Shown here piece after piece: positions 14,004-17,082 of a DNA stretch of 20,824 nt. Under the pieces are notes generated by a model. It was not told where the DNA came from and did not search any database. It saw nothing but the letters and a program-made list of their open reading frames with translations. Numbering within the stretch: position 1 is the first letter of the stretch; every line of letters begins with the position of its first letter. The position numbers and the translations under genes are program-made. The stretch comes from a virus, in IMG/VR virus record IMGVR_UViG_3300047094_003086, positions 1-20,824 of that record. One strand, written 5' to 3'.

Positions 14004-14873
14004 ATGTCCCAATCCGAAATCAACCACTACCTATCCGAAATCGGCCGGCACCCGGTCCTCTCGAAAGAAGCGCAGCTCCGCCACTGCCAGCGCATCTTCG
14101 CCTGGATCCACCACGAGGACGGCCGCGAGAGCGCCCCGCTGCACATCCGCCGCTCGGGGAGCCGCTCGATGGAGGTCATGGTCCGCACCAACCTGCGCCT
14201 GGTGGTCTCCATCGCCAAGCGCTACCAAAACCGCGGCCTCGACCTGGCCGACCTCATCCAAGAAGGCAACCTCGGCCTGATCCGCGGCCTCGAGCTCTTC
14301 GACCCGACCCGCGGCTACGCCGTCTCCACCTACGCCTACTGGTGGATCCGCCAAGCCATCAACCGCGCCATCCACACCCACGCCCGCGCCATCCGCATCC
14401 CAATCAACACCCACGAACTCCTCGCCCGCATCCAACGCCTCACGACTGAGCACCTCACCCTCCACGGCACCGCCCCCAGCGTCGACTACCTCGCCACCCT
14501 CACCGACACCACCCCCGAGCGCATCGCCCAAGTCCTCCACACCAACACCATCACCGCCTGCGCCTCCCTCGACTCCCTCTCCACCGAGGGCGGCTCCGCA
14601 ATCATCGATCTGATCTCAGCCCCCACCGACTCCAACGAATCCGAGCCCGACGAGCACCTGACCTTCCGCAGCAACCAAGAAGCCCTCACCGCCGCCCTGG
14701 CCCGTCTCTCCACCACCGAAGCCACGGTCATCCGCGAATCCTTCTTCAACCGCCGCACCCTCAAAGACATCGCCACCGAGCTCGGCTTCAGCCGCTGCCG
14801 GGCAGGCCAAATCCAAAAAGCCGCGCTGCGCAAGCTGCGCTACTTCCTCAGCCTCGACGGTCATGAGCTCTGA
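14004..14873 (+). CDS. Sigma-70 family RNA polymerase sigma factor with altered promoter-contact residues
   Basis: 289 residues, group 2-like sigma factor that would redirect host RNA polymerase to element promoters. Region 1.2: [20 protein letters not shown] (6-25). Region 2: [20 protein letters not shown] to [16 protein letters not shown] (63-123). Region 3: [15 protein letters not shown] onward. Region 4: [17 protein letters not shown] and [12 protein letters not shown] then [17 protein letters not shown] (232-279). Against E. coli sigma-70, the position of T440 is Asn, E585 is Cys, R588 is Gly and E591 is Gln, whereas Q437, R584 and Q589 are kept. These are -10 and -35 contact positions, so specificity may differ. 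ATG 14004 has no Shine-Dalgarno. It lies upstream of the non-coding region and small-gene operon. Confidence 0.9.
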
Positions 14874-15162: not shown

Positions 15163-15353
15163 CCCGGCGCGACCCCTACGTCCCCCTGCGCTGGTACGAG
15201 CTCTGGATGCTCCGCTTCCTCTCCCGCAGCCCCCGCATCCACCGAATCCTCATCCAACAAATCGTCTACGACGACGCCCCCGAGGACGGCCTAGTCCAAC
15301 AACTCGAAGCGCTGTACCAGGGCCCCAGCGCCGAAACGCAAGCCAAGGATTGA
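15159..15353 (+). CDS. Small hypothetical protein (64 aa)
   Basis: 64 residues from ATG 15159. A basic, aromatic N-terminal half (RWYELWMLRFLSRSPRIHRI) is followed by an acidic part (YDDAPEDGLVQQLEALYQG). ATGA overlap upstream; the stop overlaps a TTG of the following gene (TTGA) and lies in a TTGACA hexamer. No family recognised. Confidence 0.5.
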   Translation: MTRRDPYVPLRWYELWMLRFLSRSPRIHRILIQQIVYDDAPEDGLVQQLEALYQGPSAETQAKD

Positions 15354-15403
15354 CAGCTCTATGCTCCTGTGCCAGTCTATGGGATCCAAAACGACGCCTG
15401 ACA

Positions 15404-15787
15404 GTGGGCTACGCCAAATACATCCCACTGGAAGACATCGTCGCCACCTGCGAGCAGCTTTACACCGCCCACGGCTTTGTGAAATGGGCGGATGTGGCCA
15501 GGGTTCACGACGTCTCCCGCCAAGCCGTGCTGAATCGCCTGCAGTCCGCAAGTGACCGTGGCGACCTTCCACCCGACACGTTGGATCGTTGGCGCTCAAC
15601 ATCCGCTAGGGCCGCTCAATCCAGAAGCAACGAGACGCTCCGCCGCGAAAACGACAGGCTCCGCTTCTCGATGACCCTGACCCCTGAGAACAAGCGCTGG
15701 CTTGATGCCGAGTGTGTTGCCCGCAAGTGCCGTTCCGCCGACATCGTTAACGGGCTGATCACCAAAGCCCGCGAAGGGCGCGAGTAG
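15404..15787 (+). CDS. Putative DNA-binding protein with HTH and ribbon-helix-helix-like regions
   Basis: 127 residues from GTG 15404. WADVARVHDVSRQAVLNRLQ (about 28-47) is a helix-turn-helix; FSMTLTPENKRWLDAECVAR with KCRSADIVNGLITKA near the C-terminus has the strand-helix-helix order of CopG-type domains. A TTG at 15350, overlapping the preceding stop as TTGA, would add 18 residues and is a real alternative. I prefer GTG because TTGACA (15350-15355), 17 bp and CAGTCT could serve as its promoter and the extra residues look unlike a domain. It directly precedes the palindrome array at 15884, a plausible target. Function is inference. Confidence 0.55.
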   Translation: MGYAKYIPLEDIVATCEQLYTAHGFVKWADVARVHDVSRQAVLNRLQSASDRGDLPPDTLDRWRSTSARAAQSRSNETLRRENDRLRFSMTLTPENKRWLDAECVARKCRSADIVNGLITKAREGRE

Positions 15788-15883
15788 TACATATACATTA
15801 AATTTTTATGGGCCCGGCCATGTGCAAAGCACTGCACCCCCTGCCTCACCCTTCGTCCCAGGCTGCGTCTTGCTTTGAGACGG

Positions 15884-15921
15884 TGAGACTCATCCCTGTG
15901 ATCTGAGTCTCAATAGACTCA
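15884..15921. promoter_or_regulatory. Array of TGAGNCTCA palindromes
   Basis: TGAGACTCA (15884-15892) and TGAGTCTCA (15904-15912) are each palindromic, with centres 20 bp apart, two helical turns. A degenerate ATAGACTCA follows at 15913-15921 and a TGAGAC half-site precedes at 15876. They sit upstream of the TTGACA at 15932, an activator-like position. In RNA the same bases could form alternative stems (TGAGTCT-CAAT-AGACTCA). Confidence 0.5.
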
Positions 15922-15931
15922 GTCAAGACCC

Positions 15932-15960
15932 TTGACACTTGCCGCAGGCCGTGCTCTGAT
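15932..15960 (+). promoter_or_regulatory. Promoter TTGACA-17-TCTGAT upstream of the gene-free region
   Basis: A perfect -35 TTGACA (15932-15937), a 17-bp spacer and a four-of-six -10 TCTGAT (15955-15960). Transcription would start near 15967. No protein gene starts within the next 850 bases, so its first product would be a non-coding RNA or a very long leader. Confidence 0.55.
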
Positions 15961-15966
15961 AGCTCA

Positions 15967-16803
15967 GTCGGACGGAACCGGCCTGCGATCCCTTGGCCCA
16001 TAGGGTCAGGATCCCCCGGCTCCCCCGATCCCGCAACCTTTATCGGTGCGGGACTTGACAAAAGCCCGGCGATCTGCAAGGCTTGTCAGCACAACCGAAA
16101 AGCGGCCCTGCGGGGCCTCGGCCCCAGGCCAGCCCCCCGCCGGTATCGGTTGCCAACCGTCCATCCTATTCCTGAATCGTTCATGGTTTGACCCATTGCG
16201 GCGCTGTGCGCTGCGCCACTGACATCTGACGAAGGCCCATGGCGGGCCTGGTCTCATGGGCAGGCAAGACCCCCGCATCTGCGGTGAGGAGCCAGAGGTC
16301 CCAGCACAGAGACGATCCCGCCCTGCGTGCCCAGTTAGTCGATACCCCCAGGGAGGTAGCCAAGGTTGGCCCGTGAATAGTGCCGCGAGGCATCAAGCCC
16401 CAACCGCAAGCCTCAGCCGTGGGAGTCAGTCACCCGACCGAGCACGCCCTCCGTGTGCGTGGCGTCGGTCCGTGACGGCCCCTCCTGCCCGCTGTGCTCT
16501 GTCCTCCGTAAGGCCCTCGACTGCGCCCGTCTACAGATCACCCGCACGGCCCGGCGATTTACCTGAACCTCAGGCGGACAGATGCTTGCACCCACGGACT
16601 GCCCGCATCCCCTGCGCCTCAGCACACTCCAGGTTGCGGCTGCACGAGTGATCTAAATAGTGGGATACCTACTCCCAGCTGGGTGACACCCAGCAACGGT
16701 GGCCGCGTGCCCACCGTGGCACCGAGCACTCGGCTCTGCTCAGCACGCACAAACCCTCTCCCCCAGAAGTTCCCCCTGGCGCACTGCGTCCGGGGGTCTT
16801 CTA
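15967..16803 (+). ncRNA. Candidate large structured non-coding RNA in a 1-kb gene-free region
   Basis: 15788-16836 holds no credible protein gene. Stems seen include TGACAA(aa)GCC 16056-16066 with GGCTTGTCA 16080-16088; TCCCGCA 16029-16035 with TGCGGGA 16047-16053; GGGGCC/GGCCCC 16112-16125; GCCCATG/CATGGGC 16235-16261; TGCC-GCGA-GGCA 16381-16392, a GNRA tetraloop inside GGTTGG/CCAACC 16364-16405; a three-part stem 16429-16476 (GTCAC/GTGAC, GACCGA/TCGGTC, CGCC/GGCG); CTGGGT/ACCCAG 16679-16693; ACGGTGG/CCACCGT 16696-16717; and a long final stem 16765-16802. A promoter lies at 15932. Size, GNRA loop and phage context recall ornate phage RNAs such as GOLLD or ROOL, but I cannot show homology. 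GC-rich DNA gives chance stems, so this stays a candidate. Ends are approximate. Confidence 0.5.
16765..16802 (+). terminator. Long hairpin at the end of the gene-free region, possible terminator or processing stem
   Basis: AGAAG-CCCCC on the left pairs with GGGGG-TCTTCT on the right, with an inner CGC-ACT-GCG stem. The 3' side ends in TCTTCT rather than a pure T-run, so termination may be partial, letting transcription enter the small-gene operon. Confidence 0.4.
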
Positions 16804-16837
16804 GCTGAGGGGCTTTGCCTCTCCATCCCTCTAGCTG
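16800..16837 (+). repeat. Two direct copies of TCTAGCTG, 30 bp apart
   Basis: TCTAGCTG occurs at 16800-16807 and 16830-16837, flanking a small GAGGGGC-TTT-GCCTCTC stem just before the first gene of the right-hand operon. Short, and possibly chance. Confidence 0.4.
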
Positions 16838-17082
16838 TGAGTTCAGCCATGCAATTCGACTCACGCCGGGCCACCTGCCCCGGCTATCTGGAGTTCATCT
16901 GGCGCACCGACATTCCCCTCCCCGAGGGCGCCAACCCCCAAGCCATCGCCTACATCACCGACACCTACAGCACCCCGCGCAAGCCCTGGTTCTGCGGTGT
17001 CTACGGCATCCACGTCATCGAAGGCCCGAGCATCGCCTCCGTCAAGTCGGAGCTCTTCACCCTCATCGAGTCCGGCCAATGA
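16837..17082 (+). CDS. Hypothetical protein, first gene of the right-hand small-gene operon
   Basis: 81 residues from GTG 16837 or 77 from the in-frame ATG 16849 (MQFDSRRATC). GTG is preferred because its leader CATCCCTCTAGCT-GTGA closely matches the one before GTG 20225. Unrecognised alpha/beta protein with EFIWRTDIPLPEGANPQAIA and KPWFCGVYGIHVIEG, a ferredoxin-like or dodecin-like strand order at best. Overlaps the next gene by ATGA. Confidence 0.55.
   Translation: MSSAMQFDSRRATCPGYLEFIWRTDIPLPEGANPQAIAYITDTYSTPRKPWFCGVYGIHVIEGPSIASVKSELFTLIESGQ

Follow-up and report, generated by a model that had tools for sequence, protein, structure and literature searches.

The gene-free region at positions 15788-16848 of a viral contig of 20.8 kb, IMG/VR record IMGVR_UViG_3300047094_003086 (the window, meaning the whole analysed stretch of 20,824 nucleotides), is probably a promoter block followed by a long, structured, untranslated leader RNA, which would head a rightward and presumptively late operon, the late timing being a guess. 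Comparison with related loci, in which structure and position are conserved and no open reading frame is, gives good support to a large structured phage RNA at this place, because synteny and covariation go together with the lack of a conserved frame. The first-pass annotation had proposed such an RNA, perhaps of the GOLLD or ROOL kind: the large structured RNA stands on these three lines of evidence, the GOLLD or ROOL identity does not, and the look of an operon leader had been missed.

The contig carries genes for DNA polymerase A, a KilA-N protein, a primase-polymerase, ThyX and a sigma-70 family factor (Pfam). The sigma gene (14004-14873, plus strand; Pfam Sigma70_r2 and r4) belongs to the locus and lies outside the RNA, and in the window two small genes separate it from the RNA region. 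A small protein encoded in this interval (15350-15787, plus strand) looks helix-turn-helix-like by eye, matches no Pfam family above the cut-off and has, in some of the family, counterparts at the equivalent position. Among the top 80 relatives listed for the sigma factor in genome_contigs, 78 are cyanobacterial by title (identity 34-44%), many of them Cyanobium, Synechococcus or Prochlorococcus, which points to a likely host among the freshwater picocyanobacteria. Cyanophage KBS-S-2A, an isolate among the best sigma-factor matches, was set aside as a carrier of the region, as annotated genes follow its sigma gene and no such gap is seen there. In two related contigs the primase-polymerase match is interrupted by one in-frame stop, a TGA in G006:C1:178-2820 (the contig of L083) and a TAG in G005:C1:10056-12803 (that of L017), which may reflect a reassigned stop codon, decay or an assembly error.

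The gap is bounded by the stop codon at 15787 and the ATG at 16849, and its description as gene-free is borne out. None of the ten stop-to-stop frames of at least 60 aa in window positions 15872-16831 has a stop-free match that covers 80% or more of it in the other loci tested, L118, which is nearly identical to the window, having been excluded from this test. Some frames of other members remain open in near relatives with the same core type. A coding reading was rejected, since no window frame is conserved across the loci tested; a frame conserved across homologues, the outcome that the first-pass annotation had held against an RNA, was looked for and none was found. The region has no blastn match at 1e-5 among isolated phages or plasmids, and one 3' pattern gave 0 exact matches in the bacterial genomes of genome_contigs, so that no prophage copy was found by that route.

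Relatives were reached by searching with the sigma factor and with the small protein that precedes the gap; they have a gap at the same place, and the DNA there aligns in parts. A pattern for the most conserved part retrieved 62 stretches from viral_contigs, 54 belonging to the family and 8 not, and the 3' element is common to 41 distinct IMG/VR loci, with the window counted and 14 duplicates removed. The sigma gene lies upstream in 35/35 loci with more than about 1.3 kb of upstream DNA, while the upstream DNA of the remaining six (43-1276 bases) is too short to show it; its distance to the 3' hairpin of the RNA is 0.9-2.4 kb, and only 0.9-1.1 kb in 11 loci. When loci having 880 or more upstream bases, 37 in all, were aligned by sequence, the best-conserved stretches were 16092-16150 and 16692-16850, and the core was patchy. 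Seven of nine contigs searched have a terminase match (L002 and L085 have none), and in all five with a match and a known offset (L007, L008, L012, L017 and L083) the gene for it sits on the strand of the RNA, 9.4-13.1 kb further downstream; judged by the terminase, the RNA therefore heads the strand toward the structural genes.

The 5' part of the region is an array of promoter-like sites in tandem, about 80-130 nt apart and three in most members. Upstream of the first site the window has two copies of operator-like repeats, GAGACTCA and TGAGTCTC (15885-15911), and in the six relatives examined 1-5 copies of such repeats precede the RNA. The promoter TTGACA-17-TCTGAT proposed by the first-pass annotation is present as P1 (15932-15960, plus strand), with TTGACA at 15932-15937, 17 bases and TCTGAT at 15955-15960, and lies in the same register as a promoter-like site that is conserved and was aligned in 26 loci, the window counted. 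Across the family the -10 box of P1 has A at position 2 in 20/22 and T at position 6 in 21/22 distinct sites; that of the window lacks A at position 2, and for this reason a strict promoter scan does not list it. P2 (TTGACA-17-AAGGCT) lies at 16055-16083 on the plus strand, and P3 is marked by the -35 box TTGACC (16188-16193, plus strand); A2 and T6 occur together at spacer 17 in 16/25 distinct sites of P2 and 11/25 of P3. The window -10 boxes are poor at P1 and P2 and degenerate at P3. Three sites were found in 27 of 28 parsed loci and two in L104, with three also in L140, and the three-site array is absent from 8/37 loci. The distance from P2 to P3 is 119-120 in 18/28 loci and 119-133 in 27/28 (window and L118 counted). 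From their sequences, P1-P3 would act as promoters, and the phage sigma factor encoded upstream, which is of cyanobacterial type, may at a guess be what reads them. The composite stem once proposed at 16056-16088 straddles P2 and, by eye, is not conserved among the relatives.

A 50-nt stem-loop, H, formed by two helices with a conserved internal loop, follows P2 and, in the window, P1 as well. A covariance model of H (R1), built from 15 relatives with the window excluded and used on 822 kb, matches the window on the plus strand at 15972-16023, behind P1 (34.3 bits, E 7.2e-6), and at 16097-16146, behind P2 (45.4 bits, E 5.7e-9), the latter copy having covariation as well. Sense-strand matches at E <= 0.01 were obtained in 23/39 family sources, 15 of which built the model, and the best E among 38 non-family sources was 2.7. 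R1 finds no H in 16/39 family sources, four of which (L098, L104, L129 and L138) show H by hand; it also detects H in L146, L149, L150 and L154, and the far relative L018 has no convincing copy (best E 0.21, on the wrong strand). The stretch 15968-16050 folds with a z of -2.47. When 24 rows were aligned by sequence only, 87.6% of the H cells were paired, against 76.6% in shuffles and 28.7-47.4% when the structure is slid, with changes on both sides in 11/16 pairs; of 500 shuffles, which ignore relatedness, none was as high on four measures and 3 were on the fifth. The hand-parsed helices show 2-4 Watson-Crick types at 12/14 pairs.

The place of H directly behind promoter-like sites recalls the put element of HK022, which, according to PMC9378689, consists of two stem-loops, about 70 nt, downstream of early promoters. 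By this analogy, a put-like action of H is a rival explanation for the 5' part, and to it may be added the sigma gene upstream and a second small stem-loop that is seen by eye between H and P3 in many relatives. Unlike put, H is one two-helix stem-loop standing among tandem promoter-like sites, and the second stem-loop occurs only in part of the family and is missing in the window. Control of transcription could also be sought nearer the 3' end, in the leader with its long hairpin T (described below). In lambda, pR', the 6S leader and tR' form a long leader that heads the late operon behind a regulator gene, and the region would have the same layout; it differs in that its RNA is larger and structured up to the AUG, and that a consensus scan of the plus strand found no intrinsic terminator for H to overcome. 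In addition, the long hairpins before later genes lack a U tract by eye. A leader of this regulatory kind, with H acting on RNA polymerase like put, whose activity is protein-free antitermination, or with the T-bearing leader as a pR'-tR'-like attenuator, appears quite unlikely as the main account of the region.

The leader RNA that is preferred here would continue from P3 into a variable core (16225-16678, plus strand; start placed by reference to P3), which is 450-600 nt long in the family and occurs in several sequence types. Blastn divides the cores into groups (A, B, C, D and others) that have little sequence in common; the window core, whose nearest counterparts are those of L095, L096 and L109, shares a motif with these three and is joined by blastn to none. 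All four core groups tested beat shuffled alignments (16 column shuffles each): the alifold z on the plus strand is -9.1 for C (5 sequences), -5.3 for B (5), -4.2 for A (4) and -4.9 for D (3, being the window, L095 and L109), against -0.4 to -1.7 for sigma coding controls. On the minus strand the values are weaker in each group (C -4.5, B -4.9, A -2.9, D -3.4). Because the groups are small, alifold shows that the core is structured but not the detail of its structure. A home-made pair-by-pair covariation test of groups B and C, with 10 members per group, many of them near-identical, yielded 0 significant pairs in C and 3 in B, none within the alifold structure, a null result that we judge to be due to lack of power. 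Taken singly, the window RNA as a whole has a folding energy that does not improve on its dinucleotide shuffles (z -0.36), with 14 relatives at -0.8 to -5.7 and eight coding controls at +0.4 to -2.9; stems spotted in one sequence are therefore not evidence, and the comparison is. By eye, L085, L126, L100, L133 and others look as if their cores had been recombined with the promoter block and the 3' end on either side, and for this reason the RNA looks modular.

Towards the 3' end, a hairpin CTGGGTGACACCCAG at 16679-16693 (plus strand) has, by eye, a counterpart CTAGGTGATACCTAG in L095. It is followed on the plus strand by hairpin A (16697-16716), hairpin B (16724-16741, loop NNCGGCTC, parsed in 34/41 loci), hairpin T of 7+5+5 bp (16763-16804), hairpin D (16807-16823, GAGGNNC-TTT-GNNCCTC, parsed in 39/41 loci) and hairpin E (16834-16847, GCTG...CAGC), which abuts the start codon; in addition, the A loop GCGTG (16705-16709) can form a pseudoknot with CACGC (16744-16748), the strand behind B. 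In an alignment of 38 sequences, 36 of them distinct, the cells paired amount to 58% in A, which some rows lack or have misaligned, 83% in the pseudoknot, 90% in B, 99.7% in T, 95% in D and 92% in E. Changes on both sides were observed in 7/7 pairs of A, in 3/5 of the pseudoknot and in three of the 17 pairs of T, ten of which never vary, and in 21/46 pairs over the whole 3' end (A, B, T, D, E and pseudoknot). None of 500 shuffles was as high on any of five measures, in a test which, like that of H, uses shuffles that ignore relatedness and structures derived from members of the alignment. Collecting homologues and checking them for covariation, as the first-pass annotation had advised, thus gave strong signals in H and at the 3' end. 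The stems that it had drawn within 16697-16741 and 16765-16802 are supported by comparison, and of its three successive hairpins at 16679-16733 the part from 16697 onwards shares in this support, the first, 16679-16693, having only the L095 counterpart seen by eye.

In 41/41 loci the structured end leads into a start codon followed by an open frame of 40 codons or more; this ATG is found 72-83 nt beyond the first C of the conserved CCCCC stem. In the window this is the first gene behind the RNA, an exchangeable cassette of 77 aa (16849-17082, plus strand). Here, and at the corresponding position of 40 loci, the gene encodes one of several small proteins; by eye these look unrelated to each other, as if cassettes were swapped at a fixed junction.

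A DNA element, such as a replication origin or a packaging or recombination site whose inverted repeats merely resemble RNA stems, would account for the absence of genes, the repeats, the swapped flanking cassettes, the very high conservation of T and a GC skew that is weaker across the region. The skew keeps its sign there, however, compensatory changes occur in stems with asymmetric internal loops, and the plus strand outscores the minus strand in 4/4 core groups, though slightly in B; such an element is very improbable.

In seven relatives the 3' end of the RNA has a tRNA-like cloverleaf sequence in place of hairpin T (L149:602-709; L153:6520-6627; L154:790-895; L155:6404-6509; L156:1511-1616; L152:13086-13192; L146:2084-2244). 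The stretch is about 100 nt, longer in L146, with a conserved GGCAAGGCGCAGT and a canonical T loop, and the sigma gene lies upstream in six of the seven, L152 ending too soon upstream. Five of the six that were folded (L149 and L153-L156) form a full cloverleaf with a 7-9-bp acceptor and a z of -4.3 to -8.1, and L152 does so only in part (z -2.7); L146, which has an insertion, was left out of the folding. ARAGORN calls a tRNA-Ser of 85 nt within the stretch of L152, the only one of the seven with a call (L146, L149 and L153-L156 have none). A model of T-D-E (R2) finds no T in the seven; both R1 and R2 also give weaker opposite-strand matches at the same places as their sense matches, as near-palindromic stems do. 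The arrangement known from MALAT1-mascRNA, in which a tRNA-like fold stands at the 3' end of a long RNA, is comparable as regards these seven relatives; it differs in that the RNA here is of phage origin, that the window has hairpin T instead, and that cutting is putative here.

The junction is not confined to the end of the leader. Weaker T-D-E-like units occur about 0.6-2 kb further downstream in 23 family loci, the window not among them, and in the 20 inspected each precedes a start codon with a hairpin that by eye has no U tract. These second, diverged units, made of a long hairpin, a small hairpin and GCTG..CAGC-ATG, lie for example at L089:6666-6744, L099:2603-2676, L095:5645-5718 and L086:9444-9521. 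In the far relative L018, two ATGs are each preceded by a T hairpin. This recurrence before start codons fits a junction better than a transcript end. Read-through from leader to operon is suggested by it, because the like junction recurs inside the operon, and also because conservation and structure reach the start codon and a consensus scan gave no terminator-like site on the plus strand. The 3' strand of T is U-rich in most members, which leaves room for termination at T; the U-rich strand, absent in some, is paired in the stem.

These data also bear on a free-standing RNA of the GOLLD or ROOL sort, with its own promoters and end, which would act in trans, for example as an RNA-only multimer. 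GOLLD, according to PMC12286853, has a conserved 3' part and a less conserved 5' part, and the region is like it as a large phage RNA with a conserved 3' and a variable 5' region, its 5' promoter block being partly conserved as well. The size and phage origin of the RNA, its several promoter-like sites, the single match per stretch in the pattern scan and the U-rich strand behind T in most members would all agree with such an RNA, and ROOL is likewise a large structured phage RNA. GOLLD, which forms an RNA nanocage, is often found near tRNA genes; no tRNA gene was called in 29 sources (some contigs scanned twice under other ids), and no adjoining one in the loci scanned. The covariance-model check proposed by the first-pass annotation was run, and neither in the window nor in the scanned relatives did any Rfam family, including GOLLD and ROOL, reach its threshold. 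The GOLLD model RF02032 gave matches in 0/10 contigs at E <= 10; ROOL (RF03087) had none by cmscan and none in a direct search of ten contigs, in which its controls were unmatched too. Permissive matches were rejected as chance, both in the window (SAM-IV at E 2, two snoRNAs and a viral sisRNA) and in relatives (a miRNA-like match from GAGACTCA-type repeats in L149, and other matches). Since, moreover, the structure continues to the start codon, no terminator-like site was found on the plus strand and the RNA, unlike GOLLD, appears to lead into an operon, a free-standing RNA is regarded as rather unlikely.

For the operon leader, the following course may be proposed. The host RNA polymerase, perhaps with the neighbouring phage sigma factor, would start at P1-P3, and the nascent RNA would first fold H, directly after P2 and in the window after P1 too, next the core of 450-600 nt and, after it, hairpins A, B, T, D and E. 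The transcript would continue through the start codon at 16849 into the swappable small gene and, further on, the structural genes. The block at the 3' end, with hairpin T or in some relatives the cloverleaf, would probably be a junction for cutting and for the start of translation, and after a cut there the upstream 0.6-0.9 kb could accumulate as a free, stable RNA; both the cut and the free leader are suggested by the cloverleaf form. A more far-reaching reading is put forward tentatively, as a possibility: the family may form a new class of large phage RNAs, in which the cores are exchangeable and a tandem-promoter block is placed at the head of the late operon, and whose 3' release junction exists in two interchangeable forms, a cloverleaf that is a substrate of RNase P or a long hairpin that replaces it. 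If true, this would be a phage counterpart of the tRNA-like 3'-end formation of long RNAs.

To our knowledge, named large structured RNAs of phages are few, and no report of this one was found in the open-access literature searched; viruses may thus carry more large RNAs than are known. Here several core types are held in one fixed frame, and the conserved ends show what must be kept. The variety of cores, the conserved ends and the tRNA-like end in some relatives make the function testable: which end is cut and by what, and whether it is the RNA or its operon that matters.
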